Assembly: GCF_921293095.1 (NCBI RefSeq) | Contig: NC_060258.1 | Span: forward strand, 5,394,001 to 5,458,000 | DNA length: 64,000 bases | Direction of reading: 5' to 3' | Source: Ischnura elegans | Taxonomy: Eukaryota > Arthropoda > Insecta > Odonata > Coenagrionidae | Shown here: piece by piece, positions 23,300-59,639 of the stretch | How the letters are laid out: each line of letters starts with the position of its first letter | Numbering within the stretch: position 1 is the first letter of the stretch | The notes under the pieces: model-generated | Seen by the model: the letters and a program-made list of their open reading frames with translations, nothing else | Databases searched by the model: none | What the model was told of the DNA's origin: nothing | Program-made: the position numbers and the translations under genes

Positions 23300-25698
23300 G
23301 GTATCTACGATTTTCGGGATAAAGCAATTTACTCCACACCACACCGCATACTATATGTGCTGTGATCTGAAGGATATGATGTGCGGATGGAGAATTGATG
23401 AAAAAAATTGTTAGTTTAACCACTGACAATGGTTATAATATTGTTGGGGCTACAAGGCTACTAATTCCCAATCGTGAGGTACATGTGTCCTGCCTGGCAC
23501 ACAAAACAAACCTGGTCGTGACTAAAGCTCTGAGAGCTAAGGAAGAAGTGGTGGAAGTGATTGAGAAAATTAAAAGAATTGTGGCTTACTTTAAGCGGAG
23601 TAATGTGGCCCAAGACCACTTAAGACAGGAGCAGAAGAAGGTGAGAAGGAGCATTTACTTTTAAAGCAGGATGTTCCTACCAGGTGGAACCACACATTTT
23701 ACTGTATCGAAAGATTCCCATTACTGTTACCAAGGGTGGGTAAAATACTCCTCTCCCCATCCCACAGGGATGCTCCTCCTATGCCAACGTCAGAAGAGTT
23801 GGAGATTATGGGAGATGTTGTAATGATTTTAGCACCTTTTGAGGCCTCCACTAAACAGATATCAGAATATAAGTACAGTGGAACTTGGTCAGTACGCTCC
23901 TCCTTCGTATGTTTTCCTCCTTAGTATGGCGATTTCTCTCGGTCCCGGTACCATTCGAACATTATACAGTTAAAAGTATTTGGTTAGTACGTTTGAAAAA
24001 ATTGCGCTTTCCTGGTTAGTACGCTCAATTGCTTGCCGTGACGCAACCCGCAATTCGTTCTCTAGTATCTTCTATCTGAGCCAATTATTATTAGCCATTG
24101 ATCTCTTTCTTTGATTGTGATTCATCCAAAGGCATTTCTCAATTCTAGTGACGTGTTGAGTATAAAATATGGCCATTTATCAGGAATGTCTCACTAACTA
24201 AACTGCAGCCAATGAGAAGCCCCGATTTTACCCACCCCAAGCTCCTCACCTTCTATTGCCTCTGCAGTGCCCTCTGCACACAAATTTTGCAGGTGGGCAA
24301 TTGTTGCTACTGTACGACATATCATGATGAAGAAATCGTAATCTAATAGTCTTATCCTAATCCCACTTTATCTAAAGCAGTACTCCATAAACTCGACGTC
24401 TAGGTGGTTTAGGCTCTGGAGTACGTGCATATTTACTTGACTACTGCTGTGGGAGCAGACGATGCTCTGGGTATCCACGCGAAGCTTAGCTTAAAAATAC
24501 GGTGAGAAAGCAGACGACAATGGACAATTTTTTAAAGTAAATTTCAACTGTATAATAAAAAAACTTCTTGTAATTACGTCGTAATCTAATAATCTTGCGT
24601 GTTATTAATCGATATATCGATCGATATCTTAATCGATATGGTTTCATTCCAGAAGCGAATGTGCACGGCTGTCGCTGTACTTAAAGGCTAATATAATTTT
24701 GTCCAATTTTTATAATGTTTAAAAACAACCAGTTGACATACTCAGGGTTGTTGCTATATTCTCCGAGTATGCTGTGACAAAAAATAAATGACTTAGCTTT
24801 TCTTGTCCTCTTTCTATGAATATATATTTAGGATTAATCACGGGAGATAGACGCCGTTTTCATGTAAATGTCTTCAGGAAATCTATGAAACATTGTGATT
24901 TTTATTCATATGGTATTGTTTTTCAATATAGTGCACATTTTAAAAGTGAAAAGAGTTCAGGAAGGCGATGGTACAAGCACTACCGATAATATTTCTAATT
25001 ATGACGACTTTTCCACAGACCGCAATTACCCTGAATGCTATTATTTACTTTCCTCGTTAGCATATATTCCTGGTTAGTACGTTCATTTTTTGTGGTTCCT
25101 TCAGAAACGTACTAAACAAGTTCCACTGTATATCAGTGGTAGCCTGGTGATTCTGATGTGGAATTGTATATGCATTGCACTCTCAAAAATTAATGTGAAT
25201 AATTCTGTGGTAGGTGAGCTCCTACAGAAATTGAGAGAACAAGTTGAGGGAAGATTGGACCCCATTGAGGAACAGCCTTTTTTAGCTGCAGCCACTATCC
25301 TCCACCCCCATTTAAAAAAATATTTATTTCAAATGGCAGTTTAATGCTGCAAAAGCAGTGACTAATATCAGGGATGAAATAAAGGACGTACTGAGGAGTC
25401 AGGGGCCCCTTAGTCCCCCCATAGTAACCAACCAGCAAAATACAGATGACCTATGGTCAGTACATGATACCATGGCAGAAGAAAGTTAGCATGCGATTCC
25501 TGATCCCCAAGATGGGAGTTTACCCACAGAATTAAAATTATACCTGATCCACCCTTACTGAGTAGATTATCGAATCCAATACAATTCTGGAAGGATATGA
25601 GAAATGCCTTCCCTGGAATGTATGAGGTCGCAATGAAGTACTTGACTATAGAAGGTGCTTCAGTTGTGTCTGAGAGGGTGGTTTCTCTCCTGAACTTT
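23300..25698 (+). pseudogene. hAT-superfamily transposase, broken and interrupted
   Basis: 23395-23660 encodes the RNase-H-like core SLTTDNGYNIVGATR, HVSCLAHKTNLVV and a lysine-rich helix. This is the second catalytic-aspartate block of hAT/ZBED transposases. A frame change leads to LKQDVPTRWNHTFYCIERF (the conserved TRWNST motif) at about 23660-23720, then 23755-23875. After the inserted element, the same protein resumes at 25129 in frame (SEYKY|ISGSLVILM). It continues with LDPIEEQPFLAAATILHPHL and, after another shift, SNPIQFWKDM and ERVVSLLNF, the hAT dimerisation region. The N-terminal BED finger is not found. A possible last piece follows the MITE at 26390-26440. Confidence 0.88.
23876..25128. 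mobile_element. 1,253-bp pogo-like element nested in the hAT
   Basis: Ends are CAGTGGAACTTGGTCAGTACG-type at left and TTTAGTACGTTTCTG...complement CAGTGGAACTTG at right. TA is duplicated at 23874-23875 and 25129-25130. Removing the element and one TA restores the hAT reading frame. The interior has no transposase. A run of atcgat motifs lies at 24608-24645. A truncated relative is at 16143. Confidence 0.88.
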
Positions 25699-25702
25699 TT
25701 AA

Positions 25703-26386
25703 CCTTTTCTGTACCGTACACGTATATATACGTGTGGACGTTTCCTGACCCGGGAGACCACGGGCGTATATATACGAGTGAGACTTTCCGCGGTCAAGAA
25801 AACGAAACCCGTATGTATACGTTTTTTAGCTCTCCCCCTTTCAGGACGGTCGTGGGTTTAGGTCGCCTTTGTCTCGGGACCCAACGCTTCAGGGTTTAGG
25901 ATTAACCCTCCGAATCCAATATTTGTTCAATTCTCAAGAAATATAAACTAAGAATTGAATTTTTTGTCTTTTGAGCATCGTTTAGAATTTTTAAACTAAA
26001 TTCTACGACAAATATTAACTTATATCTCGAGTTATGTATAAACATCAACATGGAAATTGTTGCTGCGTTAAATGCTTTGATAATGGCCTTAGAACTTCGT
26101 TTAAAATTTGACAATGCCCAGATAAAAATGAGGATATATATATATTCTATGTCTGTAATTTACGTGCAAGCAACAATTATCCATTTGCTAAATACATATA
26201 AGCAATACATAAGTTGACCGCGAACCAATGCCACAGGTATGGTCATCGTAAACCCGGAAAGGAGGGAGCACAACTACTCTCGGAGTCCCACCATGGAGGG
26301 GTCGAAAAAGGTTCAGCGAGACCCTTCTTAACGAATGCCCTCCAAAAATGCTCTATACCACGAGAAAAAAGAGTCTCTTGGGGCTC
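25703..26386 (+). mobile_element. piggyBac-type MITE nested in the hAT 3' end
   Basis: Starts after TTAA (25699-25702) with CCTTTTCTGTACCGTACACG and follows the 12675-13286 element almost to its end, stopping around the ggggctcggg position. The right terminus is missing. It interrupts the hAT dimerisation region right after LLNF. Confidence 0.75.
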
Positions 26387-29268: not shown

Positions 29269-29625
29269 ATGCGGACATGAATATCGATCGTAAGAGAAGG
29301 ATGGTATCTAAGACCACCAAGGGTAGAGGCTCACCGAAGCCCTGCCCTATTTGTGGAAAATGTACCAAACACAGATGGTCCGCCAAATCCAACATGTTCA
29401 CCCTTCGTGTGTGAAAAACCATTGAGAAGTGCTCCCGGGCAATAACTTAGCTGGTTGCGAAAGGTTTATTCCGATACCTGGAGCACTTAATATTAAACCT
29501 TTTCGGGGCACAGTGGAGGAACTCCCCTGAAGAAATACATGTGAGCCTTGCATGCCTCGGGTTAGAGGTAATCCCTTCGGGGTTATCCCTCGAGGACGAA
29601 TGCGGGGTGGATGACGACAAATGAA
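29269..29625 (+). pseudogene. Degenerate zinc-finger exon 1
   Basis: After acceptor tatttttag it reads MNIDRKRRMVSKTTKGRGSP then KPCPICGKC, losing frame in the finger at the position of the two histidines. The remainder still aligns with the family tail (GLEVIPSGLSL region near 29560-29595). The stretch 29400-29800 is repeated almost unchanged at 30775-31180. Confidence 0.7.
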
Positions 29626-29809
29626 GAGGAGGTAAGTGACGAGTCTAAGGGTTATTTACTATGTTTGAGATCTTTCTCTATGAACACATATTTTCTTTCC
29701 AATAAGCTTATTTTGTTATAAATTGTTAATTCCGCGGAGGCAGGCTGTAGTTTTTGCTTCTCCTTTGCAAACGTTCGTGTCTATTTAAATAAATATTCTT
29801 CTATTTTAG

Positions 29810-30188
29810 AAATATGGAAATTAACAAAACCATCATGTGGAAGATGGTAACGAAAAAAAAGGGCAGTGGCACGCCCAAGCCGTGCCCGATATGTGGAAAG
29901 AGATTTACTTCTCAATTATCCCGCCACATCGCAAAGGTTCATCCTGCCATATTTCAGAGATATGGCAGGGATGTGGTCGACAAGTGCTCCCGGGGTATCA
30001 CCAGGCTGGTGGCAAGCGGCACTTATAGGTACCCGGAGCACTATGTGTTGAGATCTTTTGGGGCCCTGTGGAGGGACTCCCCACAAGAAATGAGGGAGAG
30101 CCTCGCATGCGTCGCGGTGGAAGTAATCCCATCGGGGATATCCCTCCCGGAGGCACGCGGGGTGGAGGAGGAGACGGATGTTGACGGA
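29810..30188 (+). CDS. Zinc-finger exon 1, intact (MEIN type)
   Basis: An acceptor (ctattttag) is followed four bases later by the ATG at 29814. 125 codons run without interruption to the donor GACGGA|gtaagt. Residues 24-42 form a C2H2 finger: C-P-I-C with two residues between the cysteines, twelve residues to the first histidine (SRH) and four to the second (KVH). A basic stretch (MWKMVTKKKGSG) precedes it. A conserved tail follows with YPEHYVLRSFGALWRDSP and VEVIPSGISLPEARGVEEE. A single finger with a linked conserved helix suggests DNA, RNA or protein binding; the target is unknown. Near-identical exons are on the minus strand at 60271-60649 and 62830-63208. Confidence 0.7.
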
Positions 30189-30313
30189 GTAAGTGACGGG
30201 TCGTCCTCCATGGAGACATGATATTTTCCATTTTTTCATAAATATTCTTCTTCGTTTTCGGTAGTGGAAAATTGTTTACGATATCCCCATTGACATTATG
30301 TTTTCTTTTTTAG

Positions 30314-30397
30314 AACGCTGACATCAGAAGAAGGGAGGAAGTGGGAATTTCGCCTCCGTCAGCTCTCCTCGAGACGGAAGCTGAAAATATTACGGAT
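30314..30397 (+). CDS. Family exon 2 of the 29.8-kb unit
   Basis: 84 nt, phase 0 at both ends, encoding NADIRRREEVGISPPSALLE then TEAENITD, between ttttttag and gtgagtc. Joins in frame to the zinc-finger exon. The next exon (starting at about 30502) is cut after AACTCT, where the unit breaks into a shared 5'-flank repeat, so this unit ends here. Confidence 0.65.
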
Positions 30398-30774
30398 GTG
30401 AGTCAATGAGTTATTTACACTTTTTATAGTATACAGGACACTTCTCTTATCCCATGAAACTTTTTACTAAACGCCCTGTAACGTTACGTTTTCCTTTTCA
30501 GAACTCTTAGTATATTTACTAATCAGATGTCCAAAGGTTTGTTGTCAACAATTATTTACAGTGAAAAATTAACTTTATATGACATATTTTAATTAGTTTC
30601 ATTGGTCCGTCCTTTTTTGAGTCCGAAATGTTAGACTTGAAAAACTGGCCGTGTTTGTCCAATCTCTGTTTTCCATTAATTTCTATCACCCTTCTCGCGG
30701 CAAGTACTTGATTTTTAGCATACATTATTGACTCTTTGTTAGCCGCCGACGTGGTTTGTTCAGCTTTATTTTCA

Positions 30775-31015
30775 CCCTTCCGTGTTTGAAAAACCATTGA
30801 TAAGTGCTCCCGGGCAATAACTTAGCTGGTTGCGAAAGGTTTATTCCGATACCTGGAGCCCTTCATATTAAACCTTTTCGGGGCACAGTGGAGGAACTCC
30901 TCTGAAGAAATACATGAGAGCCTTGCATGCCTCGGGTTAGAGGTAATCCCTTCGGGGTTATCCCTCAAGGACGAATGCGGGGTGGATGACGACAAATGAA
31001 GAGGAGGTAATTGAC
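30775..31015 (+). pseudogene. Truncated zinc-finger exon fragment
   Basis: Begins abruptly at HPSVFEKP-like sequence and repeats 29400-29640 nearly base for base, with the same frame breaks. Downstream intron sequence is also shared. The step between copies is about 1.37 kb, a local tandem duplication. Confidence 0.65.
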
Positions 31016-31187
31016 GAGTCTACGGGTTATTTACTATGTTTGAGATCTTTCTCTACGAACACATATTTTCTTTCCAATAAGCTTATTTTGTTATAAATTC
31101 TTAATTCCGGAAAGGCAGGCTGTAATTTTTGCTTCTCCTTTGCAAACGTTCGTGTCTATTTAAATAATTATTTTCTTCTATTTTTAG

Positions 31188-31567
31188 ATACATGGAAATG
31201 AATAAAAAATAAATTGGAAGATGGTGTCCATAAAAAAGGGCAGGGGGAAACACCTAAGCCCTGCCCTATATATGGCAAAAGGTTTTGCACGCAATTGGTC
31301 CGCCACATCGCGAAAGTTCACCCTTCTGTGTACAAAAAATATGGAAGGGAAGTTGTAGAAAAATGCTCCCGGGGAGTAACCAGCCTGGTTTCGAAAGGTA
31401 TAACCAGGTACCCGGAGCACTTCATCTTGAGTGCATTCGGTCAAGCATGGAGGGACCCCCCAGAGGAAGTTCGGGAGAGCCTCGCATGCCTCGGGGTTGA
31501 AGTGATCCTTTCGGGGATATCCCTCCCGGAGGCATGCGGGGTGGAGGTGGAGAGGGATTTTGACGGG
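31188..31567 (+). pseudogene. Zinc-finger exon 1 (MEMN type) with frame damage at its start
   Basis: An acceptor tttttag precedes the ATG at 31192. The first codons run into a stop after MEMNKK because the A run is one base shorter than in the minus-strand relatives. A second small indel near 31235-31250 brings the frame back. From there TPKPCPIYGKRFCTQLVRH to the donor at 31567 is open. The second zinc cysteine is tyrosine here (CPIY), so the finger is probably not functional. An in-frame start at 31214 could give a shortened product. Confidence 0.65.
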
Positions 31568-31692
31568 GTAAGTGACGGGTCGTCCTCCATGGAGACATGA
31601 TATTTTCCATTTTTTTATAAATATTCTTCGTCGTTTTCGGTAGTGGAAAATTGTTTACGATATCCCCATTGACATTGTGTTTTCTTTTTTAG

Positions 31693-32333
31693 AACGCTGA
31701 CATCGGAAGAACGGAGGAAGTGGAAGTTTCGCCTCCATCAGCTCTCCTCGAGGTGGAAGCTCAAAACATTCCAGATGTGAGTCAATGAGTTATTTACACT
31801 TTTTATAGTATACATGACACTTCTCATATCCCATGAAGCTTTTTACTGTACGTCCTGTAACGTTATGTTTTCCTTTTCAGAACTCTGAAGCTACGGAGGA
31901 GACAGCATTGCCTGTGGTGAGTAGAGTACTTGGATGAAAATAGATATATATTAGAGGTTTCTTTATATGTATACAGTTTGGACTCCACTTCACCATTTTC
32001 ATATCATACAAACATCCGTTGCAAATGTCTAAGTTCATTCTTCATGTCTATCTTAGGACAGAGTCGAGGTTCCCGGACAGGAGGCAGATGGTGGAAAATC
32101 TGTGAGTTAATGTTAAATTTATATTTGATAGACTAGAAAAATACCTATTGCATATCATGGAAATCATCCAAATTCCACTTTTCATATTCCCGAACCAGTA
32201 TAAGCAAAAATTTGACTTTGGGTTTCTTTATCCTCTTAGGGATACATTAATGACCTCATAATTTTCTTTGAGTCGGAGGAGTTGAGTCTTCCCGCGACTC
32301 CGGATATTTTTCAGCCACCTCCGACGCCGCGAG
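31693..32333 (+). CDS. Family exons 2-5 of the 31.2-kb unit
   Basis: Exon 2 31693-31776 (84 nt, NADIGRTEEVEVSPPSALLE...). Exon 3 31881-31916 (36 nt, NSEATEETALPV). Exon 4 32057-32101 (45 nt, DRVEVPGQEADGGKS). Exon 5 32240-32333 (94 nt, GYINDLIIFFESEELSLPAT then PDIFQPPPTPR). All have GT-AG borders; the first three keep phase 0 and exon 5 ends in phase 1. The same four exons with identical lengths are on the minus strand at 62065-62704. The product is acidic and proline-rich, resembling a linker or activation-type region, with no known domain. Confidence 0.65.
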
Positions 32334-32469
32334 GTAAGTAAAGGAAAAACTATTTCAAATTCTGATATTGAAAGTTAAAGTGCTAATTTATGCGAAATTG
32401 TTACCTAGGTTTTTCTATATTTAGGAAAGGACATTTCCCAGATTAATTTTCTATGAATTGTATAAAGGA

Positions 32470-32668
32470 ATTCACATAATTTTTAGATTTGTATTTTTTT
32501 AAATATTTATCTTATTTAATATCTGTGTTTTTTAAATATTTATTGCATATAATATCTGTATTTTAAAAAATATAAATTACATTTAATATCTGTGTTTTTT
32601 AAAAATATTTATTGTATTTTATGTGTGTATTTTCTAAAAATATTAAGTGTAGTTTATCTCTGCATTTT
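32470..32668 (+). repeat. AT-rich minisatellite
   Basis: About five units of 35-45 bp with the theme tttttaaatatttattgcatttaatatctgtg. An inverted counterpart is at about 61650-61910 and remnants lie near 20450 and 20900, in each case in the intron after family exon 5. Its right edge (32668) is a junction with the tail of another exon 1. Confidence 0.8.
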
Positions 32669-33085
32669 TGCGGGGTGGAGGAGGAGACGGATGTTGACGG
32701 GGTAAGTGACGGGTCGTCCTCCGTGGACACATGATATTTTCCATATTTTCATAAATGTACTTTGTCGTTTTCGGCAGTGGAAAATTGTTTACGCTATCCC
32801 CTTGACACTATGTTTTCCTTTTTAGAACGCTGGGACATCAGAAGAGGTAGGAGAGTCGTATGCAACGCTTACTCAGCCTCCATCATGTAACACCTCAGCT
32901 CTCCTCGAGGTGGAGACTGAAAATCTCCCGCATGTGAGTCAATGAATTATTTACACTTTTTATTTGTGAATAGGACACTTCTCATATCCCATGAAGTTTT
33001 TTTACTTTATGCCCTGTAATTTTCAGTTTTCCTTTTCAGAACTGTGAAGGTACCAGTACGAAGGAGTTGGCGTGGCATGTATTGA
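32669..33085 (+). CDS. Partial family unit: exon 1 tail, exons 2 and 3
   Basis: Starts in mid exon 1 (GVEEETDVDG, donor gtaagt at about 32703), with no zinc finger. Exon 2 is longer than elsewhere (32826-32933, 108 nt, NAGTSEEVGESYATLTQPPS then NTSALLEVETENLPH) and resembles a fusion of the two exon-2 forms in the decayed 19.1-kb copy. Exon 3 starts at 33040 (NCEGTSTKELAWHV), but its usual donor is altered. A 2.28-kb element sits in the next intron. Confidence 0.55.
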
Positions 33086-33129
33086 TAATAGAACTTCGAT
33101 AAAAAATAGATATAGATGATTTTCAAATA

Positions 33130-35413
33130 CAGTAGAATCCTGATTTAAAGTTTTTCAGCGGGGACAAAATTTAAAACACTAAATGCGGAAAAACACTAAA
33201 TGAGGACCTGCCATTTTTTTCAGGTTTTAGGGCCTGTAATGATTGAAATGGCTTTTTATGAATAAAAAATATTATTTTAAGTAACTTGAAGGTGCTAAAT
33301 GCAGCAACAAATTCATTGATTAAATGTCTTTGCCCAATTACGGTTGGATTATACTTTTCAGGAATCAGTTAAAAAATTGGTAGTAAAAATAAGTAATGAG
33401 AGGATGACAATTGTTTCAATGAAATATTTTAAGAAAATTATAATATTCATCAACTTAAAAGCATTCCCACACGGAATATTATTATGGAAATTAGTGATTC
33501 CATTTTACGCATATTTCAGTGGCCTCGAAGTAATTTTAAATTTTTTTCTGTAAAAGTGACATGTAGTGACTATTGCATTTCTAATATCATAAAAAAAAGG
33601 TGTAAGTAGGTACTTGAAAAATTGTCATTGCATCAGTAAAGATGAGTGAAATAAAGGGACAGCAGAAGATCGCTAATCCCGAATTATAAACTATTGAATA
33701 TATAGGAAAAGGAAGGTTTTCTGGAATTTTGACAATTTAACGTTTTCTGTTGCCTCGGCGAAACGAGCGATTTATGAGCCTCCTGTGCGCACATTTTGGA
33801 TTTCGAGGTCATCCAAATAAAGGAGAATCTTTTTTCTAGTATGCGTACAAGTCGATGAGAACACCAGATTCGTTATTATATATCCGCGGCCTCATGCAGG
33901 TCGAATGGAGCCTGGAGAAGTTGCTTACGCGGCGCGCTGATCACCTTGACTCCGACTCACCATGTTTCTCAGCAGCTTTTAATAAAATTTGGTTGGACCT
34001 TGAATAACCATTAGCTAAACTGTGTTAAGTTGAAAGGTTTAATCTTCAACAGAACTGGATTTCATCTGAAAAATTGACAGTGCCTCTGCAGTTTTGGCAA
34101 TTTCGTCCGAGTTATGGTGTCGCAGTCAAGCACCAAGGGATTCCTGCTGGATTTTCGTATTTTTCCGCGCTCATCTATTTTACCGTGATATATGGTGATT
34201 TTTTTTCCAGCATGAGCGATTTATTTAGAGTCATGGGCATGCCGAGGACAGCCGAGAAACATGGTGAGTCGGAGTCAAGGTGATCAGCGCGCCGCGTAAG
34301 CAACTTCTCCGGGCTCCATTCGACCTGCATGAGGCCGCGGATATATGACATTGAATCTGGTGTTATCATCGAGTTGAATCACCATCGACTTGTACGCATA
34401 CTAGAAAAAAGATTCTCCTTTTTTGGATGACCTCGAAATCCAAAATGTGCGCTCAGGAGGCTCATTGTCAAAACTCCGATTGTCATTCTCTTTAGACATA
34501 AAATAGCACCAGATCTTTGAATCGACAGCGATATCAACCAGCCACATGTTGGTATCTAGGCTCCGGGATATCTAAATTACGATGTAAAATAATGTTGTTC
34601 CATTAGGAAAGAATGTTTTCACTCACGATCATGACAGAGGAAACACTTCCTCGTTTCTTTCGCTGTTCCTCCGTGGAAACTGACCTTGGAATGGATTATA
34701 AAAATAATCTTCTAGTGAACTTCACAAATGATATCGAGCCTCTTATGAAAAGAGAAAGTAGCTGACTGGAAAAATATTGGGCTAACAATGGACTGCCCGT
34801 AGAGAGTAGAGTAGAAAGGGGCATAAGCCGTCAATTGAAAACATTACGAGGAAACCATCATTGTAGCGGCCCTCGGATGATAACTCGTGTCATCAGTCGT
34901 CACGTATCATCGAAGTTCACGAAGTGAAGGACAAGGTAGTTAGAGGTTATCAAGGGATGACTTAGCTCCTTTAGATCGGATCTGATACAAAAAGTGTTTG
35001 GTGTGTTTGGATCAGAAGGGGAGCGAAACATTACGAGAGGACAAATCACCCAGCTTGCGAGTTGAAGGTCCCAGCGCTGCATTCGCGGAAGAAAGCAGTT
35101 GAAGGAGCGTTCCCCGGTAAATTCTAATGACTCTTGGTAAACTTTCATGAGAGACTTCTTGTCGATGAGCAGAAATTCCAAGATTTTGATAATCATTTGC
35201 ATGAGCCGTCTTGAAAAAACGTTAAATCGGGCAAATAAATCTTGTGCGGGAAAAATTTTTACGACCATATATGCGGAAAAACGCAAAATGCAGAAACACT
35301 AAATACAGATAATTTTTACATTGTCCTAATAGGGAATGAATCGGGACCGCAAAAAATAAACGCTAAATGCGGAAAAACGTTAAATGCGAAGATGTTAAAT
35401 CCGGATCCGACTG
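33130..35413. mobile_element. 2,284-bp pogo-like element in an intron
   Basis: Ends are CAGTAGAATCCTGATTTAAAG-like and the complement CAGTCGGATCCGGATTTAAC. TA is duplicated at 33128-33129 and 35414-35415. Repeated ctaaatgcggaaaaac motifs lie just inside both ends. Other copies of this intron (19960-20025, 31990-32056) show the unfilled site. The interior has no transposase but a large inverted repeat (33774-33975 / 34246-34465). Confidence 0.85.
33774..34465. repeat. ~200-bp inverted repeat with 270-bp spacer
   Basis: Arms 33774-33975 and 34246-34465 are near-exact reverse complements, for example GAGCCTCCTGTGCGCACATT, TCATGCAGGTCGAATGGAGC and GCGCGCTGATCACCTTGACT. It could be a nested foldback element or a long hairpin transcript source. 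Confidence 0.85.
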
Positions 35414-35466
35414 TAATGCAAACAGCCGTTGCCAACTTCTTACTTCATTCTTCATTCATACCTTAG

Positions 35467-36048
35467 GACAGAGTCGAGGTTCACCTGCAGGAGGCAGATG
35501 TCGAAGAATCTGTGAGTTAATGCTATATTTATATTTGATACTTAGACTAGAAAAGTACCTATTGCACACCATGTAAATCATCTGAAATCAACCTATAACT
35601 TTCCCGAATCAATATAAGCAAATGTCTGACTTTGGGTTTCTTTATACTCTGTTAGGGAAACATGGATGACATAATCCTCTTACTTACAACCAGGGATTGG
35701 AGTCTCAACTACCTCAGATGCCGCGGGGTAGGTAAAGGAAGAACTGTTTCAAGTTGTGACATTGAAAGTTATAGTGCTAATTTTAGTTATTTTAGGGCGC
35801 CGAGATATCGAGGAAGAACGGATCCCCACCATCGCCATTGCCTCGGGTGAGTTAATATACAGCAGAAAGAGAAGAGGAGAGTTGTGAACAAGTGCTTGGA
35901 TTTTATTGAACTTCTTCATTTTTCATTTGAACAAACATAAGTTAAAAATGCCTTTTTTCTTTATTTCTTTCAGGGGTAAGGATACGGATTCAGTTGGAAT
36001 GGAGGAAACACCAGTTGTTTTGAACGAGGAGGTTGATGCCCTATTTAT
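35467..36048 (+). CDS. Family exons 4-7 of the unit after the insertion
   Basis: Exon 4 35467-35511 (45 nt, DRVEVHLQEADVEES). Exon 5 35656-35727 (72 nt, GNMDDIILLLTT...LRCRG), which is 22 nt shorter than in other units and so changes its exit phase to 0. Exon 6 35796-35846 (51 nt, GAEISRKNGSPPSPLPR in the phase-0 reading). Exon 7 35981-36048 (68 nt, DTDSVGMEETPVVLNEEVDA), 7 nt shorter than its duplicate at 36365, which breaks its frame. Splice sites are retained throughout. Exons 4-6 still join in frame. Confidence 0.5.
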
Positions 36049-36186
36049 GTGAGTCAACCATTTGTTCTCACTTGATAATAAGACTAGAGGGATACTTACT
36101 TTAGTCCGTGCTAATTACCCAAATTCTACCTTTTCCTTATGCGGAAACATGGTTCATTCCCGTTAATTAAGTTTTCCCAATTTTAG

Positions 36187-36439
36187 GATGCTGATACATC
36201 TGTGGAAGACGGGTCTCCACAGTCAAAACTGTCGCAGGTGAATACAGAACCTAGGTGAATAGCAGATTTAGATAACAAAATTTTCATTTTGTTACTTATC
36301 CCACTTCTTCATTTGTAAAATCATTAGTGTAAAGTTTCTCCTTTTTGTTTATTTCATGTCTAAGGAAACGGATTCCGTTCATTTGGAGGAAGCACCAGTT
36401 GTTTTGAACGGGGAGGTGGACAGGCTATGCCCTATTTAT
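36187..36439 (+). CDS. Two phase-0 family exons (copy B)
   Basis: 36187-36237 (51 nt, DADTSVEDGSPQSKLSQ) and 36365-36439 (75 nt, ETDSVHLEEAPVVLNGE then VDRLCPIY). Both have clean acceptors and gtgaat/gtgagtc donors. The first peptide is identical to the one in copy A2 (4817-4867). The second differs by a 9-nt in-frame difference, consistent with coding constraint. Confidence 0.6.
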
Positions 36440-36575
36440 GTGAGTCAACCATTTATTCCTACTTGATAATAAGACTAGAGGGATACTTATTTTAGTCCAT
36501 GCTATTCAACCAAATTCTAAATTTACCTTACTCGGAAACAATTTATCCCCGGCAATTTATTATTTACAATTTTAG

Positions 36576-36862
36576 GATGCTGAGACATCTGCGCTAGACA
36601 GGGCCCAAAATCGCAACTGCCACGGGTGAATTCATAACTTCGGTGAATAGCAGATTAGGAAAGAAATTTTTTATTATGTTCCCAGGTTTTACACCGCTTC
36701 TTTGTTTTATCTTCGTGCATACATATGTTGATAATGTCTCTCGTTATGCTTGTTTCATATTTTAGTGAATATAGTGAATTGTAGTAGTATTCGGATATAG
36801 TGAAATTGGGGGAGACACCAGAGGTGATTATCCTGGATTTGGAGGCTCAGTTGAAGACCTCT
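36576..36862 (+). CDS. Two further family exons, the first damaged
   Basis: 36576-36625 is a duplicate of the DADTS exon (DAETSALDRAQ...), one base short. An open stretch ending at 36862 reads SDIVKLGETPEVIILDLEAQ then LKTS before donor gtgagtcc, phase 0. Its start is uncertain because the nearest acceptor (atattttag, about 36765) is followed by stops in that frame. It would splice in frame to the 120-nt exon at 37160. Confidence 0.4.
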
Positions 36863-37159
36863 GTGAGTCCATCAAACTTGTTGCCAATGGTGACACTTTT
36901 TTAACTTTCTTGAACCGTTATTTACCATTCATTTTATCATTCACCACTATTTATCATTCAATTAGCATGAATTGAAGCGAAAAATAAAACCACTCTCATG
37001 GAGCTCTTTAAGTATTGGTATATGATCCAATTTATCATACTTTTCTCAGTTTAGGTGGTAAGTAAATGCTCGAAAAAAAATCCAGTAAAAGTGGATACTG
37101 GATGTTTACAACACAACAATTTTACATGTGTAAATATTTGCAATGTAATTCTTTTGTAG

Positions 37160-37279
37160 GTGGGTAAAAGGCGTGGACTTGTGACTCGATTTTTTTATAC
37201 GTTCAATTTGAGTAGCTTATTTGAATGTTGTGCCATAAAATTCGATGAGTGTTTACGACTATATATTGAAGAAATATAG
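37160..37279 (+). CDS. 120-nt stop-bearing exon (copy B)
   Basis: Acceptor cttttgtag, then VGKRRGLVTRFFYTFNLSS, continuing to a stop at 37277-37279 (39 residues). Length and stop match 5280-5399 exactly. Differences are few and none is an indel. Best candidate for the terminal coding exon of the zinc-finger transcript, about 300 bp beyond the last phase-0 exon. Alternatively the transcript could skip it and continue to the SGNH exons at 45.1 kb. Confidence 0.5.
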   Translation: MGKRRGLVTRFFYTFNLSSLFECCAIKFDECLRLYIEEI

Positions 37280-37936
37280 AAAAGGAAACACTTGCAGAAC
37301 AGTTTTGAAGTGAAAACTTCTTATTTTGAACTGGCGCACTTTTTTCAGATTGGTAGAATAAACTGAACTTGTGTGACCATCACCTCAAAATCGTCACCGC
37401 CTCACTGTTAATGTAGGGGAGGGGATTAAAGAGTTTTAAGTTTGCTCATTTGTCATGTATGAAAATATATTCTGAAGCAGAAAGCATTGCTACGTTTAGT
37501 GTTGACAAAACTTTGTCAATTTTGTTCATAGCAGTAGTTATAAAAAATATTTTCTTGAATTGCTGTTAGTAACATGGCTTTTCCGAGTTTATATTTGTAA
37601 TCCAGTTTGTTGCATAGGCTTCTTGTACTTTTTTAATGTCAGTCAATGTCATAAAGTTTTCAAATAAAAAGTTTTCACGTCCAACGGCAGTCCCACGACT
37701 GCCATGTTTTTTTCTAGAATTGCAGCTACTTGACTGTTGCAACTGGAATTTAAATTTGTGTTGCTTGTTTACTTTTGTTTTTAAAGAAATGCAAAGTAAG
37801 TTTGTTGGCATAATTTGTATAACATGTTGAGTTTTCTTCCATGGCTTGGTGCATACTCAAGCCCTTAGTTCAAGGAAGTAGGGCCTTCTACTCTTATAAG
37901 TTCAGTTGGTTCTAATATTATTCATTTCTTATCTAG

Positions 37937-38090
37937 TGCTCCGAGCTGTGTGGTCACAAGGAAAAGCAGAGGTGTTGTGTCAGATAGGAGATGTTGAAAT
38001 AGACAGCTTTGAAGGATCCTGGTCAGCCTGATAGGATGGAGACCGTCAGAGGTGTAGCTTCATGTGTCTGCAGCCGGACCTGAAATATGG
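37937..38090 (+). CDS. Candidate exon of unknown product (copy B)
   Basis: Paralogue of 513-662 with the same acceptor and donor. The frame LRAVWSQGKAEVL continues CQIGDVEIDSFEGSWSA and then meets a stop at about 38029, earlier than in copy A1 because of small indels. Probably decayed here. Confidence 0.3.
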
Positions 38091-38215
38091 GTAAGTTTGT
38101 CTGTCATTTCACATGGAGCGATAAAATATATTGTTTAGCCACTACCAGCCATGGGATGAACTTGGGAGTTTTGAATCCTTACATTAAAAGGTTATTAATT
38201 GCTCTGTAAAAATTA

Positions 38216-40807
38216 CACAGGTCAACAGTGGTTTTGGTGCCGGAGCTTTTAAAGCTGATTTCAAGTGTAATTAGGGTGCTGAATCCAAATATGATGTTAG
38301 TTTTTTCCTGTCAGCTCTAGTTTTCAAGATACAGATATGTTGTTACTTATGCAAAAAAATGTTCAATATGACGATTTGGGATAATTACATAAATGATAAA
38401 ACCCACTAAACATAAAGACTTGATTTATGTATAGGAATGTTAAATCACCTACAATTACAATAGTTTTAAAATACAATTGAATATAAATAGTAACATTTTT
38501 AATGAAATTACACAATTTAAAAGAAAAGATGTAAAAATGTCACTCAACACTTCGGATGCTTCTTTTGCGTGATTTTCTTGCGTGCACTTTGTTGAAACAC
38601 TTGTTTTAAGCACCAGAAGTAATCTGTCATCATATGGTTACCCCATCTTCCTTGGTAGCGATCTTCCATTGTTTTGATTTCCTAGTGAAATCTTTCACCA
38701 TGTTTTTCTATTGGTCGCCTAAATTTTCAGGCAAACAGTCAAAGCGCCTGTATAGGTAGTGAACGTTTATGCTCATGTTACATCCTAGTGATTTAAAGTT
38801 AGAGAGCATATTGTTTACCAGCTTGAGATAATTCTACCGTTTCAGTTTGTGATTCAGTTTGTTTTTTTTACCAGAAAACCAGAAAAATTTTTATTACCTC
38901 AACAAATGAAAGCCAATTGTTTTTTTCAATCTCATTCTTTGACTTGACAAAAGCAGGATCCTTTGTTAGTTGTTTGACTTGTGGCCCGTCAAAAATTCCA
39001 GCTTTAAGTTTTTCTATACCTATCTGTGGCATTTTTATTCTTATGTAGCCGAAGCATGGTCCATCCTTGTCAAGAGCCTTTATAAATTGCTTCATTAGGC
39101 CTAGTTTAACATGAAGGGGCGGTAAGGTGATTTTCTCCCGTTCTCCCGAGACTCAGCAATAATGTTTTTACCCAGCAATTAAATTTTCTCTCTTTGACCA
39201 CTCCTCCTTAATCCAGTGGTTTGTCTGTCCTTGCTAACACAGAGGCAAAAGAAATAAGGATTTTTGTGTTGCTAAACTGCTGCCCAAGAAGAAAGTTCAC
39301 CATTTTTAAATCTACACAAACTACCTAGCGATATCCCTGGTATTTTTATCTTCTATAAGAAAAAAGCTATTGTATCATATTCTTCTTCCATTTCAGTTGA
39401 ATGAGCGATTGGTATTAAGCCAAACTTGTTGACATTGTGAAGAACACATTTTAAGGTGCGCTTGGAGGTATCAATGAACAAACGCCAATCACTAGCTTCA
39501 TGATGCGGTAGTTCAATTCCTTTCAGAAGACCTCTAACGTCTAAAGTAAGATTGTCTTCTTGAGTAAAGAAGAGTAGCAAATCCTTTTCCCTTGTGCGAT
39601 AAAAATTAATTTTTGCACCTTGTTCCATCAAATTATTTTCATGAATCCTTGAAGCTGGTAGTTCAGATGCTTTCTTCGATAAGTTCAATTCTCTAACAAG
39701 GTTGCTTAGTTCATCATGATTAAATAGTTGAGGATTTGTTGATACTGCCTCGCAGTCACTACCACTATTGTTAATAACATCAAGAATGTGTTCACATAGC
39801 TCATATTCATCCTCACACGAATCTGGTAATGCCTGAAATATTAGGATCGGGATTTCTTCTGAATAGGGTACTGGGCATCTAGCTGAAGGTACATATGGAT
39901 ATTTCCAATTATGGCGATTTCTTTGACTAATTCCCGAAACATTTACCATGCAAAAATAACAGTTGTCAATATGGTTTGTAGGTTCTCTCCAAACCATTGT
40001 CACACCAAACTTTAAAATTTTCCTTTTTCCTGTAGTCCACTACCGCTGATGTTCTGTACATGTTTTACAAAAAACGTACGGTGCTCACTTTTTAGCTTGG
40101 TCACCAAGCTGAACACCGAAATATCCCAAGCATGTGCGTTTCATGAAGTCTGTAATGTTTTTCCTATTTTCTTTTAAAGTATATTCCCCACAAATGTAAC
40201 AAAACACATCACAGTGATTTACACAGCTTCTTCGATTTGAGCTCATTTTTAGAGGTGGCTTAAAAACCTTTGAGAATTTGACCATTTGCTTTCGGGAATC
40301 CCCTTACCTACTTACTCCCGCCTCTCCATTTTCAAGGACACGCTATCTTTTTACCACATCCCCCTTATTTACTCTGCTCCACTTTTCTGTGATTCTTCCC
40401 ACGTGTCGTTATTCCACAGTTATGACTTTGGTCCTTTTCCACCGCGGATTTCCATATCCCTTAGTTGGATCTTTTCCCACTGTCTCCACTTGTACCTACG
40501 CCTGTCTCCCCTTCTTCTAACACGATAATCCTCCCCAACCCCTTCTCAAAGGTAAAAAGGTGATTTTCAAAGTAAATACTGCATAGTGGCTATGAATTAG
40601 TTATTTTTATAAATTCATTTGAATTTGAAAAAAATTTCTGAAAAATATCAAATATTTAAAAGACTCTAATCATAAAATTTGCGGTATCTAAAAAGGTAAA
40701 GCTGTTACATAAAAACAGACAACATATTTGGATTCAACACCACGCATATTGTAAATACCAGCTCAAAAACTCCCGGCTCCAAAAAAAAACTTTTTTGTTG
40801 GCGTGTG
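38216..40807 (-). mobile_element. 2.6-kb DNA transposon with CACAG/CACAC ends
   Basis: The ends are CACAGGTCAACA and the complement of CACACGCCAACA. They extend as imperfect inverted repeats of about 85 bp that share GCTGAATCCAAATATG / GTTGAATCCAAATATG. TTA is duplicated at 38213-38215 and 40808-40810. Copy A1 shows the empty site at about 790-795. The CAC(A) ends with a 3-bp duplication recall CACTA/EnSpm elements, while TTA also fits PIF/Harbinger; I cannot decide. It carries the broken protein at 38546-40285. Confidence 0.88.
38546..40285 (-). pseudogene. Broken transposon protein with N-terminal zinc motif
   Basis: Reading the minus strand from about 40250: CVNHCDVFCYICGEYTLKEN (Cys-rich start) and YFGVQLGDQ, then CKTCTEH and TTGKRKILKFGV. 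Next is a 216-codon open run (40003-39353) with MVWREPTNHIDNCYFCMVNV, SARCPVPYSEEIP and LLKGIELPHHEASDWRLFID. After breaks come MKQFIKALDKDGPCFGYI, LKAGIFDGPQVKQLT and finally GERFH, TMEDRYQGRWG and DYFWCLK. I recognise this order from a protein abundant in insect and cnidarian genomes, usually unannotated. At least four frame breaks or stops separate the pieces, so this copy is dead. The Cys pairs (CYIC, CKTC, CYFC) suggest a zinc-binding N-terminus. Confidence 0.8.
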
Positions 40808-40939
40808 TTATCAGACCACCATGTGGTGTCTTCCTTCATAATTAGGTGTTGAAAAAGTGGTATTTTTCCACAATAAAACCAGCAGATCGGCGGTTTTCAG
40901 TGATTATATCATAAAACCATGCCCAAAAATTTCTTACTC

Positions 40940-41870
40940 TACACCTTCATGTTATGGTCTACGGTACTTAAAATTTTGTTAATATTTCATCCTAAAAGTG
41001 TTGTTGATTTTTGCATATGAAAGTGTCACTTTTTAACGAAATGTGTATGAAGTTAGTGGGACTGGAAAATTGGCACTTTAAGTCGAATTTCATAATTTCA
41101 AACCTTTTTCGCAAAGAATTGCAGCAGAATTTCAGGACAAGATTGGGTCTTATAATAGACATTCCAAGAGCGGGTAGCGGTACCACAAATGGTGGAAATA
41201 CGAGCAAGACGTTTCTTCTCAAATCCAAAGCTATCGGCGGAAATTAGTGGTGCATAAAAAAATCAAATACTTGTGTGTTTGTGTTTCATTATCTTCAACC
41301 CTTCTTCTTGGCGTTGATTTTCAATAAATGCAGCATGTACGTTTTCAGTTATTCTAAGTTATGAACAAAAAAATAAGTCACTGTAATTTTGGCTCACAAC
41401 AAAGAACTGAGAGTGTCATATTTTATTACTTTACGAGGGCTTTTTTTCATAGGCAATAAATCGGATATTTTGTCAAACTTCGCTACAAATCTACACTTAG
41501 AGGGAGGTCTGTTTGAGATTAGTGTCTTAATCTACACCTTCATGTTATGGTCTACGGTACTTAAAATTTTGTTGATATTTCATCCTAAAAGTGTTGTTGA
41601 TTTATGCATATGAAAGTGTCACTTTTTAACGAAATGTGTATGAAGTCAGTGGGACTGGAAAATTGGCACTTCTTTAAATCGAGTTTCTTAATTTCAAACC
41701 TTTTTCGCAAGGAATTGGTAAAAAAGGCAAGGCTTTCAGGACAAGAATGGGTCTTATAATAGACATTCCAAAAGCAGGTAGCGGTACCACAAATGGTGGA
41801 AATACTAGCGAGACGTTTCTTCTCAAATCCAAAGCTATCAGCGGAAATTAGTGGTGCGCAAAAAAATCAA
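40940..41870 (+). repeat. Local duplication of a ~340-bp block
   Basis: 40940-41280 and 41533-41870 are near-identical (ctacaccttcatgttatgg ... gtttcttctcaaatcc). The single counterpart in copy A1 is at 915-1240. About 250 bp of unrelated sequence lies between. Confidence 0.8.
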
Positions 41871-42180
41871 TTACTTGTATGTTTCATTATCTTCAAACCC
41901 TTTCACTGCTATGAACGTATCTAGTATGTTGGCACGGCAGACTGCGGTGAACGTACTTTTTCTTCCTCCCTACCATGTGCATTCGCCCAAGCAATCCGAA
42001 AGGTTGCTAATCCGGGACCCTTTCCTCGACGAGCTCACCCTTGCTGGGCCTTATCTTCAACCCTCCAAGCCGGGGGCTTCCTTCCCCAAAATTGACCACT
42101 CTGACAGCAATTTGAAAATCAATCAGTCCATCCCATCATCAAGAAATGATTGTTTTCATTGCACTCCTGCTTTTAGAGCA

Positions 42181-43631
42181 ATCTTTTTCGTCTTTGAAAC
42201 ATGTTTCTGCGATAAAGATAAGGATTTTGTTAACTTTGCTAAAGTGGCCATTTTCTGGGTTATGCCCCGAAGTAGTTCCTAAGTCATTGATTGTACTTGT
42301 ATGAATATAATAAGCAGCTAACCTGCAGCACTTTTAATATTAAAATTAGGGAATTTTTTATGTCTCCACCATTTTGTTTTAGAGAAGCCCCTGATTGTTC
42401 TAAATGCCTCGCAATGACCGCTATACTATTGTTTTTTTCTTAAAATTGTTTGAATAATAGCTCAAATATTTTTGTAACAAAAGGATGCATAAAAATAATG
42501 CCGAAACGGGTTTCAAGTGATTCAAATCTGCTACCAAATTTCATTTTTGAAATTACGACATTGTAATTTTTTTTCCAGCTTCCTTCGATTTGGGACCACT
42601 GTGCGTCATTGACATCTCAATAACCAAGTACTAAGCCTTCTCTAACCAGTGGCATTTCCTCCTTTACTCCATTCCCAAATCCCAGGGCCCCTCTTCATTT
42701 GGTTTATTTAACAGTAGCCACTCACTTCCCGTGTTGGAACCCCAACCCAATAGGATTTCCCATCTCATTATTTGCTAACGTCCCAAACTGAACCACTTCA
42801 CATTATCTCCTTACGGCTGCGCAATTTTTTCCATTTCTATAAATATAAGAAGAAAAATGTTCACTACAATTGGCAACAACAATGGAAGTATTGGATGGAT
42901 ACACAAGTAACCATCAATCACAATGACATATATATTGTTGGTTTTCTTAAAATTGTTTAAATAGTAGCTGGTGGAATCATTCTAAAATGAAGGGATAGCA
43001 TCAAAATATCACCATTTCAAACAGTGTGTGGCAGTATAACTCGTTAGCATGCATGACGTTTTTTCAATCATGTGGTGAGCAAGTGGGAATCCAACTGCAT
43101 GCTGCATATTCATGATTGTTCACACCTGGCCAAAGAGTGTAGATGTGGCTCGTAGGGTGATTTCATTATTTTATCTAACAGCCTACGGTGGTATAATTTG
43201 TCAGCATGAGTGACGTTTTTGCAAAAATGTCAATTCCAATACTGTTTTCCCATGTTTTGTACCGATGTTTCCCACCGATTGTAACTGTACCACTGCAGCA
43301 GCTAACCCATTCCTTACCATTGCCGCGAGAACGCAACGCAAACTTTGCAATTTCTTTTCTCCGTATGTGTCCCTTTTTTTGCTTCTCCATGAGATACGTA
43401 AAACGCTTTTTGGATTACCTCTTTCTCTTTTTTATTTAGCTTAAGCTTTCCTCTTTTTTATTTTCTATTTTCAGAAGTGGGGGAAGCGGTGGAGGATAGT
43501 GGGGGGGCTAGGTTGCATGCAAATGTCATTCGCGTCTCGACAACACAAACAATGCAGTGGATAGCATTATGTGAACTTTCGCAAACCCTGCTGCTCTCCA
43601 AGGCATAATGACATTGTATGGTCAATATATA
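42181..43631. other. Gene-free stretch
   Basis: No recognised gene. A weak exon-like patch follows acceptor ttctattttcag at 43475 (EVGEAVEDSGGA-like in one frame) but lacks a good donor, so it is not called. Confidence 0.4.
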
Positions 43632-44743
43632 CAGTAGACTCTCGTTAATACGAACAACGTTGTTACGAAGTTCTCGTTATTACGAAGCAAATCGTTGGTC
43701 CCGTCGAAAAGGCCTATCCAAGCTATAGTATAAGAAACGTTATTACGAAATTTTCGTTTTTACGAAATTACGAACCTAAGTCCCGGTCCCGGCGGTTACA
43801 ATATGAACTTTATTATGAAGTTACACGCACAAGTCACGGCATTTAGGTGGATATTCACTGCACTTAATTTTTAATAATCGTGCCACGTTTAAGTTATTCT
43901 CGTGTACTGTGCCAAAGAGCGTCAATTATGGTTCTTTATTCAGTTTACGCGCTATATCATATAACAGCCTTCATTCCTGTGAAGTCGTGGTGGCCCACTC
44001 ATAGTTAGTAAATTGGATGTACAGTCAATCCTCTTCCTTGTACACATTCGATGTACGATTTTTCAGAGATACGAGAATTCAAAACTTTCAAATTTCAAAT
44101 TCGGCACCTTTCGATTTGGCCTATACTATGCGGTGTGGCGCTGGGAAACTCTCACTGTGATCACAATCTAAATAAGGTATCATTGAATCTGGTGTGAATT
44201 TTGGAACTGTTCAGCGTTTCGCCCGTTCTTCATTACCGCGGGGAGCTATTTTTTCGTCTCCGGATGCATCGCAGGCCCCGCTAGATTAGTTCGCCACAAT
44301 CGTGAGTTAGCGCATACGTGTAATGCAGTGTTGCATCCCGCAGGATAACCGTACTTCCCGATAATTTACATGCAGTCCGGCTGGTGAGAGTTGTCCGATT
44401 ACGGCACAATAGGAGGGGCGGATAATCCTGTGCCAGCACGGTTTAGAGCCAATCGCTGTCCCCCAAACGCACCCCACACCCTCGCCTAGTCATACAACGT
44501 TGTCAAATGCATAAACGAGCACTGAAATAAGCCTGATCCACCAAAATAAGCCCATTCTTCAAATCACAAGAACAAGTAATTATTCCTCTAGGTCCTTCAC
44601 GGTCGTCGTCCCTTCCGGTTCTTTTCTTCATGGAACACTTTGTAAGCGTTTCCCTTTCTTACCTAGCCCCTTTATCCCCTACCCAGACCATTGTCTGTTA
44701 CTGGACAACTCTCGGGTCAACTGGACAACACGAGAGTCTACTG
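43632..44743. mobile_element. 1.1-kb pogo/Tigger-like element
   Basis: Ends are CAGTAGACTCTCGTTAAT and the complement CAGTAGACTCTCGTGTTG, with TA at 43630-43631 and 44744-44745. Inside the left end are repeated ttacgaa motifs typical of this family. At about 44023 a second terminus-like sequence (CAGTCAATCCTCTTCCTTG) suggests a nested fragment. No transposase. Confidence 0.85.
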
Positions 44744-45098
44744 TATATAAATGTCTTATAAATGTAAAAATGAACCTGCACAGCCATAAAACTGGTTGTG
44801 ACGTTCACCATCATGACACACTAGGCTAAAAAATAATCTCATTCAGCCTCAATGTAGGCTGTCAACAACAAGCAAGTCTTTTGACCATGTAAAGCTGTGC
44901 CTTTTTGACCACCTACCCTGAGAGGCCAGAGACTGTTCATTACCAGAGTTTAAGCGTTGTCTCCACCTATGGATATGTAGACAAGCTTTCTACTCTATGA
45001 ATGAATTTCTTGAATGCAGTACTCGTAATTGTATTATTTAGCTCTAGTATTTCATTGACTTTGACGAAGACTATTGCATTGTATTGTGTTAAACGTCG

Positions 45099-45135
45099 AA
45101 TAAATAATAATAATAATTATTATTATTATTATAAT
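45099..45135 (+). repeat. (ATA)n/(ATT)n microsatellite at a splice acceptor
   Basis: A run of aataataat followed by attattatt, a self-complementary microsatellite, directly upstream of ataatttcag, the acceptor of the first SGNH exon. It occupies the position of the polypyrimidine tract. Confidence 0.85.
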
Positions 45136-45140
45136 TTCAG

Positions 45141-46048
45141 CAACGGACCAAGGAAGGGCCCGTTCTGTTCGGTGATCAGCTTTTGGGCGACTCACACGTA
45201 GTGCACTTGGGTGCGCATATAGGGTGGTGGTTGGAGGGAGGTAAGTACATACTTGTACTATGATGAAATACCTTCTCCATTAACATCTCCTCACATTCAT
45301 CCCCTGTGATTTCTTACAACAGTTCGCCCTGCCCGCATCGGCTTATGTGTATCGGGGCAGAAAGTCATCCAATTGAGGAGACTTGTGGATGACCATGGAT
45401 ATTTTGCGAGGCCTGTGATTGTCCTTATCGGGTCGAACGACCTCCGGAATGTAAGTGTTCCTATTTCAACTTTTCGGTGAAAGAGTGTCAGTGGACTCCT
45501 CTCTCGTGGAGAATAACGTATTATTTCTCCCCTTTCATCCAGGATTGCGTATATCGAACGTTGAGGGCCGATATACATCGATTAATAATGAAGCTGCGGG
45601 TGTTGGCCCCTGGAGTAACCTTTCTCACAATACCTCCAGCTCCAGCTATGTGGAGTAACGTAATATACAGGAGGCACGTACTGGCGCTGGGACGGTGGCT
45701 ACACCGGTATTACAGATGTAAGATATTACACAGTATTCGCACTCACGTATGCTGGCTGACGTTAACCGTTTCTCTCATAACTGACTTCCTTTACAGGGGG
45801 GATCCGGGTCGTGGATATCACAACTCCTTTTCTTCTCGATCACGGTGGGGTAGACGACACATTTTTTGAGAGGTTAGTATTTCATTCTCATATGCTTTTC
45901 CAATGCCCAATGAAGGTTGTTTTCATTTCCTTTCCTTCTTCCGTACAGGTATATGGGTCAAGGTAATCGTCGCCGTCCCGACGGTGTCCACCTTAATCAG
46001 AGGGGGATGGAGGTGGTGATGGAATGCTTGGAGAGGAGTGTATGGTAG
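45141..46048 (+). CDS. SGNH-hydrolase domain, five exons, intact
   Basis: Exons 45141-45240, 45323-45450, 45543-45717, 45797-45872 and 45949-46048 (stop TAG) have GT-AG borders and mutually consistent phases. They give 192 residues without interruption. Block I is LFGDQLLGDSHVVHLG (Ser of GDS at residue 18). Block II is LCVSGQKVIQL, block III VIVLIGSNDLRN, and block V RPDGVHLNQRG (Asp-His). All four SGNH residues are present. The middle exon has TIPPAPAMWSNVIYRRHVLA. The length fits a complete SGNH esterase/lipase-like fold. The first exon needs a phase-0 partner upstream, which the family exons at 36-37 kb could supply, though 8 kb and several elements lie between. SGNH domains occur in host esterases and also in CR1 LINE ORF1 and Ngaro-type elements; introns argue against a recent retrocopy. 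Confidence 0.85.
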
Positions 46049-46169
46049 GGAGTGCTTGCACGTGTGAATGTGATGCGTGAATGGCTGTGTGTGTCTTTGT
46101 GTTTGTCGGTTACAAGTAGGCCTATGTGCCAGTTGAAAAATATTGTCTTTACCTTCGCTGTTCTCTTTC

Positions 46170-46408
46170 TTAATATACCTCCAGCGCCAGCTATGTGGAG
46201 TAATGTAATATACAGGAGGCATGTACTGGCACTGGGACGGTGGCTACACCGGTACTACAGATGGAAGATATTACAGAGTATTTGCACTCAAGCATGCTGC
46301 CAGACGTTAACTGTTTCTCTCATTACTGACTTCCCTTCCAGGGGGGGACTTTTGCCACACCTTTCCTTCTCCAGCACAGTGGGGTGGATGGCAGCTTTTT
46401 CGAGAGGT
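46170..46408 (+). pseudogene. Partial duplicate of SGNH exons 3-4
   Basis: Repeats the IPPAPAMWSNVIYRRHVLAL part of exon 3, the following short intron and most of exon 4 (to FFERGE-like sequence and a donor). It has small indels, including a shortened start of exon 4. It lacks blocks I, III and V, so cannot encode an enzyme by itself. It lies only 120 bp after the stop codon of the intact copy. Confidence 0.85.
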
Positions 46409-53794: not shown

Positions 53795-53823
53795 TTTGCA
53801 AGTACGGAAACTATTTATTACGC

Positions 53824-59437: not shown

Positions 59438-59639
59438 CTAAAAATAGAAGAATATTTATTTATATAGACACGAACGTTTGCAAAGGAGAAGCAAAAACTA
59501 CAGCCTGCCTCCCCGAAAATAACATTATATAATTTACTAAGTCTATTTGAAAGAAAACGTGTGTTCATAGAAATGGAATTAATAAAAAGGAAAATTGCCA
59601 AATATAAATTTTTCGAAATTTACTTCTAACTAATGGGAG

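Follow-up and report, generated by a model that had tools for sequence, protein, structure and literature searches.

Oskar, a germ-cell protein of insects, joins a LOTUS domain to an OSK domain that has lost its catalytic triad (PMC8662646, PMC2848206, PMC13389597), and insect OSK is described as lacking key hydrolytic residues (PMC13389597). According to the cited passage, the OSK domain has no eukaryotic relatives except some fungal enzymes, and its origin is held to be bacterial (PMC7250577). Members of the oskar cluster are stated to span the winged insects, in a passage that makes no mention of Odonata having a member (PMC13389597). Here we describe a family of SGNH hydrolase genes of the damselfly Ischnura elegans, seen in a window of 64,000 nucleotides on chromosome 13 (C13:5394001-5458000; assembly GCF_921293095.1, contig NC_060258.1). 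The window is the whole stretch of DNA that was analysed; positions given without a contig are window positions, and other contigs are called C1, C2 and so on. A first-pass annotation of positions 29269 to 46048 had proposed that zinc-finger exons, a string of tiny exons and an SGNH domain form one locus, or else two adjacent co-amplified genes.

SGNH paralogs have starts of their own, linkage to the finger genes is lost at other loci, linked copies are broken, the coding parts are under selection, and the hydrolases have an affinity to the OSK profile. The stretch probably holds two separate gene families within a segment that has undergone repeated duplication, for the most part on chromosome 13, and the SGNH half is probably a free-standing OSK-type enzyme. 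This half was judged to be of more interest than the proposed chimera. Searches of an open-access library listed no paper that describes catalytic, unfused OSK-type genes in its title or the start of its abstract; such a family in an early-branching winged insect would allow a direct test of the origin of Oskar by trees and enzyme assays.

Probable Kinship of the SGNH Genes with the OSK Domain

The A1 and B types of the damselfly genes belong to the SGNH/GDSL group, as they carry the blocks GDSH, GLCVSG, GSND and DGVHLN or DGIHLN and score above the cut-off of 32.9 bits with the generic GDSL model (PF13472, GDSL_2). The family profile of OSK (PF17182) scored above its cut-off and above the generic model in all four damselfly types tested. 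The OSK/GDSL_2 scores were 46.1/38.7 bits for the window copy, 56.9/43.9 for the A1 type, 62.6/35.3 for the B type (matching OSK positions 14-201 of 202) and 64.3/30.6 for a partial gene on C4. Among seven non-Oskar controls, three of which were fragments, OSK never scored above GDSL_2: the esterase part of a long interspersed nuclear element (LINE) gave 14.4/33.3, two bacterial parts 18.6/61.2 and 32.4/68.9, and four full-length bacterial SGNH proteins none/107, 27.4/94.3, 19.5/98 and 23.6/73. Over 14 control genomes, the OSK profile found a match in one only, below the cut-off.

Searches of the PDB with the B type (phmmer) returned Drosophila Oskar first (E 3.5e-6 over 6-189), the next match being at 0.098, and a profile of four damselfly rows again returned Drosophila Oskar (4.9e-11; next 1.9e-4). 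When Drosophila Oskar was the query, the best other chain was a bacterial-type GDSL esterase (E 0.041). In the pairwise table, B and Oskar share 29 bits. In a second set of trees, unrooted and with a single Oskar, a branch with support of 94/94 and 95/93 separated OSK and the damselfly proteins from the four bacterial proteins included. No bacterial, viral or plasmid relatives of the SGNH gene were found in a search made partly by short patterns only.

In an alignment with 5a4a, Drosophila Oskar has other residues at the catalytic positions, whereas A1 and B retain the catalytic ones. Ser15, Gly42, Asn69, Asp168 and His171 (numbering of C16:0.57M) are the predicted active site and oxyanion hole. 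The SGNH gene would thus encode, in about 190 codons, a free-standing OSK-type hydrolase expected to cleave small esters or acyl-lipids, and the intact copies are probably enzymatically active. In A1 and B no LOTUS domain stands in the same protein: their ATG precedes the serine of block I by about 14 codons. A search for LOTUS gave 12 matches with E up to 10, on C1, C2, C3, C12 and C19; the one closest to the B-type gene of C1 is 3.2 Mb away from it.

An OSK-type gene at C4:48389560-48392450 (L082, L079) has intact GDSL and GTND blocks and exon-like open reading frames (ORFs) upstream. None of the 12 LOTUS matches is on C4. This gene may be the damselfly's oskar.

The SGNH Gene in the Window

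The five-exon SGNH domain with all catalytic blocks, as first annotated, was confirmed on the forward strand at 45141-46048 and is open in all five exons. Exon 1 (45141-45240) holds block I, GDSH, and has AAG where the paralogs have ATG. Exon 2 (45323-45450) holds block II, GLCVSG, and block III, GSND; exons 3 (45543-45717) and 4 (45797-45872) follow, and exon 5 (45949-46048) holds block V, DGVHLN, followed by the stop. A second partial copy covers exons 3 and 4 at 46165-46407 on the same strand.

Before the coding part lie, in this order, a relic of the gene's upstream region (43062-43600, forward strand; 70-76% identical, in pieces, to the upstream regions of three paralogs), a 1.1-kb inverted-repeat insertion resembling a miniature inverted-repeat transposable element (43632-44743; ends CAGTAGACTCTCG) and a dispersed repeat of 390 bp with a TTA-rich tail (44745-45135, forward strand). 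This repeat makes the sequence before 45141 look like the end of an intron: the AG at 45139-45140, the splice acceptor in the first-pass annotation, stands directly behind its tail. It has at least 44 matches, on 14 contigs (C2, C3, C5-C10, C12-C14, C16, C17 and C19; best 40 of 144 candidates scored). We infer that the window copy is without function.

Linkage, State and Selection of the SGNH Copies

SGNH loci were defined as places matching exon 3 at an identity of at least 84% (best 150 of 392 candidates scored). This gave 29 loci, of which 28 are on C1, C13-C17 and C71 and one is on C3. Chromosome 13 of I. elegans consists of one main and five unlocalised scaffolds (PMC10781644). By contig order, C14-C18 would fit these unlocalised scaffolds, and we infer on this ground that C14, C16 and C17 belong to chromosome 13. 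The segments of C13 and C16 can be aligned through most of 29-46 kb, and the alignment extends to introns and intergenic sequence.

Linkage was counted with 138 of 150 scored finger matches. A finger match lies 11.8-16.1 kb upstream on the same strand in 11 of the 29 loci, one locus has a finger match 3.3 kb off on the opposite strand, and the remaining 17 lack any finger match on their own contig within 100 kb. These counts fit the idea of two adjacent co-amplified genes. Paralogs such as C16:0.57M have an ATG of their own, some 14 codons ahead of the serine of block I, and a common upstream region.

The state of the copies was read in 27 A-type loci, leaving out the finger-linked C13:3.96M and counting L012 as finger-linked although its linkage is on the opposite strand only. 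None of the 11 finger-linked copies (L009, L010, L012, L018, L019, L025, L031-L034 and L036) is intact. The ATG is gone from L009, L010 and L025, in which the exons read are free of stops; in L025 the DG of block V is missing as well. In-frame stops occur in the remaining eight, and L032 and one of two L036 exon-1 copies also lack the ATG. Nine of the 16 unlinked copies are intact (L014-L017 and L020-L024), several being nearly identical to each other, whereas L011 and L013 have a frame change in exon 1 and exons 1-2 of L026-L030 were not found. The difference gives a Fisher p of 0.003, with copies that are not independent. Of the five B-type loci, four are uninterrupted throughout the aligned exons and the fifth has a stop; the ATG was read in C1 only.

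The ratio of nonsynonymous to synonymous substitution rates (dN/dS) is 0.13-0.28 overall between the less damaged copies: 0.21-0.28 for C1 against chromosome-13 copies (the C1 copies carry the exon 1 frame change) and 0.13-0.17 among the B-type genes of C1, C8 and C66. Since dN/dS is well below 1 here and in the finger family, the coding features of both families are confirmed as more than chance. Collectively, copies inside finger-bearing segments, including that of the window, appear to be probable dead passengers that lost their start or acquired stops, with intact copies kept elsewhere.

An intact SGNH/OSK copy was seen at C15:1220578. Contig order suggests that C15 could be chromosome 13's unlocalised scaffold 2, which carries the female colour-morph locus (mapping unverified). 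The B-type genes at C1:60.59M and C7:77.72M have identical aligned coding letters on two chromosomes and adjoin a high-copy repeat. A discrete mobile SGNH cassette was considered and rejected, as there are no fixed ends: C1:21.530M has a block of 1.29 kb in common with the chromosome-13 copies, and its neighbour C1:21.546M one of 2.6 kb.

The Finger Family

Classical C2H2 fingers have the spacing C-X2-C-X12-H-X3-5-H. The finger of this family has the unusual spacing C-X2-C-X10-H-X4-H, the second cysteine being absent in 4 of 22 aligned rows. With X10 in place of X12, it falls outside the classical definition. All listed Pfam finger models scored below cut-off. Finger exon 1 is under purifying selection: dN/dS has a median of 0.24 (281 pairs from 34 open frames), and of 0.15 for the finger itself (180 pairs). 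Its tail is predicted to be helical with moderate confidence (predicted local distance difference test, pLDDT, 65), and its fold had no match among solved structures (best PDB match E 3.1). The family would encode a small protein made of a single C2H2-like finger, a conserved helical tail and short tail exons, which most likely binds nucleic acid. Its matches are all on C13, C14, C16, C17 and C38 (best 150 of 223 candidates, all matching).

Three finger exons stand on the forward strand of the window, at about 29.28, 29.81 and 31.19 kb, as first annotated; only the second is intact. Exon 1 of unit 1 (29277-29624) is decayed, with two in-frame stops. In unit 2, exon 1 (29814-30188) encodes the finger and the conserved tail in 125 codons, and is followed by an 84-nt phase-0 exon with AG/GT splice sites (30314-30397) and by exon 3 (30502-30510), which reads two codons and then a stop; the predicted protein has about 155 amino acids. 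Exon 1 of unit 3 (31192-31567) is broken by a stop just after the ATG and by a frame change. Its small exons are one of 84 nt (31693-31776, a repeat of 30314-30397), one of 36 nt (31881-31916, of a length divisible by three) and one of 45 nt (32057-32101, repeated at 35467-35511). The described string of small phase-0 exons in several units was found in these lengths and their repeats, but not in exon 5 (32240-32333), which at 94 nt is not phase 0. All of these exons are on the forward strand.

Between C13 and C16, exons 2-5 of unit 3 are 98, 97, 93 and 99% identical, against 91.3% for the non-exon bases of the block, with three of the four exon bounds used being one base late. Exon 1 is 91% identical and broken in both copies, and exon 4 of the C16 copy holds a stop. 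Further exon-like blocks at 35797-36863 on the forward strand, some of them duplicated about 390 bases apart, had been taken for exons. They show no excess conservation: over 35.8-37.2 kb, exon-like and other bases are equally conserved at 89.4% each, with some bounds off by one, and this part of the annotation was not upheld.

On C38, a finger-tail module (40% identical) stands close to the end of an ORF of 576 aa, which is followed by an ORF that looks, by eye only, as if it had tyrosine-recombinase motifs. Profile, sequence and fold searches of the latter gave no match supporting a recombinase, and its structural model is poor (mean pLDDT 38). Among the matches listed (best 119 of 132 candidates), its relatives are all on C13, C14, C16, C17 and C38. 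A mobile-element origin of the finger family is plausible, because its module is shared with an ORF adjoining this recombinase-like ORF. Since the listed finger and recombinase-like matches are confined to five contigs, duplication within one chromosome fits better than free transposition. C38 has an array of units spaced about 50 kb, in which the finger ORF and recombinase-like ORF lie on the strand opposite to that of the finger exon. Pentatricopeptide repeat matches of a second recombinase-like frame were judged spurious.

Alternative Explanations

The finger exon 1, the small exons and the five SGNH exons could form one chimeric gene, with start-less SGNH copies recruited as 3′ exons. The parts are on the same strand in fitting phase, the spacing of 11.8-16.1 kb is kept in 11 loci, and the linked copies L009, L010 and L025 are all without an ATG and free of stops in the exons read. 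However, L025 lacks part of block V and the other eight linked copies have stops, while in the window exon 1 of unit 3 is broken and unit 2 ends in a stop. The single locus does not fit, because the paralogs each possess an ATG and an upstream region of their own, the acceptor before 45141 abuts a dispersed repeat, linkage is lost and the linked copies are broken; we consider a chimera very improbable. The recombinase-like ORF, the finger genes and the SGNH gene might instead be cargo of one giant transposon, given that recombinase-like matches occur close to many of the finger clusters, within the same contigs, and that a finger ends the ORF just upstream of the recombinase-like one. This is improbable: the listed finger and recombinase-like matches are restricted to C13, C14, C16, C17 and C38, neither element ends nor target duplications were identified, and the recombinase is a motif reading only. 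It is unlikely, too, that we are dealing with ordinary GDSL esterases and an OSK score that indicates no special kinship, since OSK exceeds GDSL_2 in all four damselfly types tested and in none of the seven non-Oskar controls, and Oskar is the best PDB chain for B and for the damselfly profile.

Several results nevertheless weigh against two separate families with an OSK-type hydrolase, and some of them favour an ordinary esterase. The OSK cut-off of 27 is also passed by two bacterial sequences, the 3p94 part (32.4 bits) and a full-length Bacteroides protein (27.4 bits). With A1 alone, the phmmer search of the PDB placed a LINE esterase first (E 0.015) and Oskar second (E 0.2), and in the pairwise table a Sphingomonas hydrolase outscores Drosophila OSK for the window copy (17.7 versus 8.3 bits) and A1 (20.3 versus 12.5 bits). 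A first tree, made with partial sequences, had long branches and was uninformative; of the second trees, one does not reject OSK on the bacterial side of the damselfly proteins (approximately unbiased test, p 0.37), and in the other this placement is a branch of the best tree (73/75). The window copy and its twins lack an ATG, and, as the phase fits, a finger exon may yet be spliced to 45141 in them. The window copy has a dN/dS of 0.19-0.29 against most copies and 0.46 against the start-less C16:1.857M; it gives 0.29 and 0.20 with the start-less L032 and L036, so relaxed selection on start-less copies is not clear-cut. Among L012, L018, L019 and L032, values are 0.30-0.83.

Two unrelated families, co-duplicated with insertions between them, would account for the segment. 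A further step can be taken only tentatively, and we regard it as a lesser possibility: the damselfly may keep, in many free-standing and catalytic copies, the enzyme lineage that gave OSK. If so, Oskar would have arisen when a resident, duplicating insect hydrolase gene was fused to a LOTUS gene, and any bacterial transfer would lie further back.

Other Features of the Window

An array of finger units on the reverse strand (58902-63876) has two intact exon 1 copies, at 60271-60645 and 62830-63204. From about 32500 to 64000, the window is mostly 98-99.7% identical, in inverted orientation, to C17:4005000-4034999, which may be either a recent duplication or an unmerged haplotype. The C-terminal region of a hAT transposase lies at 25504-25896, and a 228-aa ORF without a Pfam match at 39353-40039 on the reverse strand. 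A tandem repeat with a unit of 117 bp (2.9 copies) occupies 53816-54159, with scattered relatives up to 56.5 kb.

Comparison with Known Systems

Transposons with a tyrosine recombinase resemble the C38 arrangement in that a finger ORF adjoins a recombinase-like ORF. They differ in that the damselfly ORF has no profile support and that no element ends were found.

The esterase of CR1/L2 LINE ORF1 (4c1b; PMC3905857) is likewise an SGNH hydrolase and was the first match of A1 alone. Compared to the damselfly genes, it has a GDSL_2-type rather than an OSK-type score, and the damselfly genes have introns. The texim SGNH genes of fish (PMC4021074) are also multi-copy and intron-bearing with intact SGNH blocks, and are amplified on one special chromosome amid mobile elements. 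In fish they are linked to Helitrons and expressed in testis. The word oskar is absent from the text of that paper.

With the OSK domain of Oskar (PF17182), the damselfly hydrolases share a profile match over nearly the whole domain and the GLCVSG block. Compared to Oskar, they are free-standing and multi-copy, and they possess the catalytic Ser, Asn and His.

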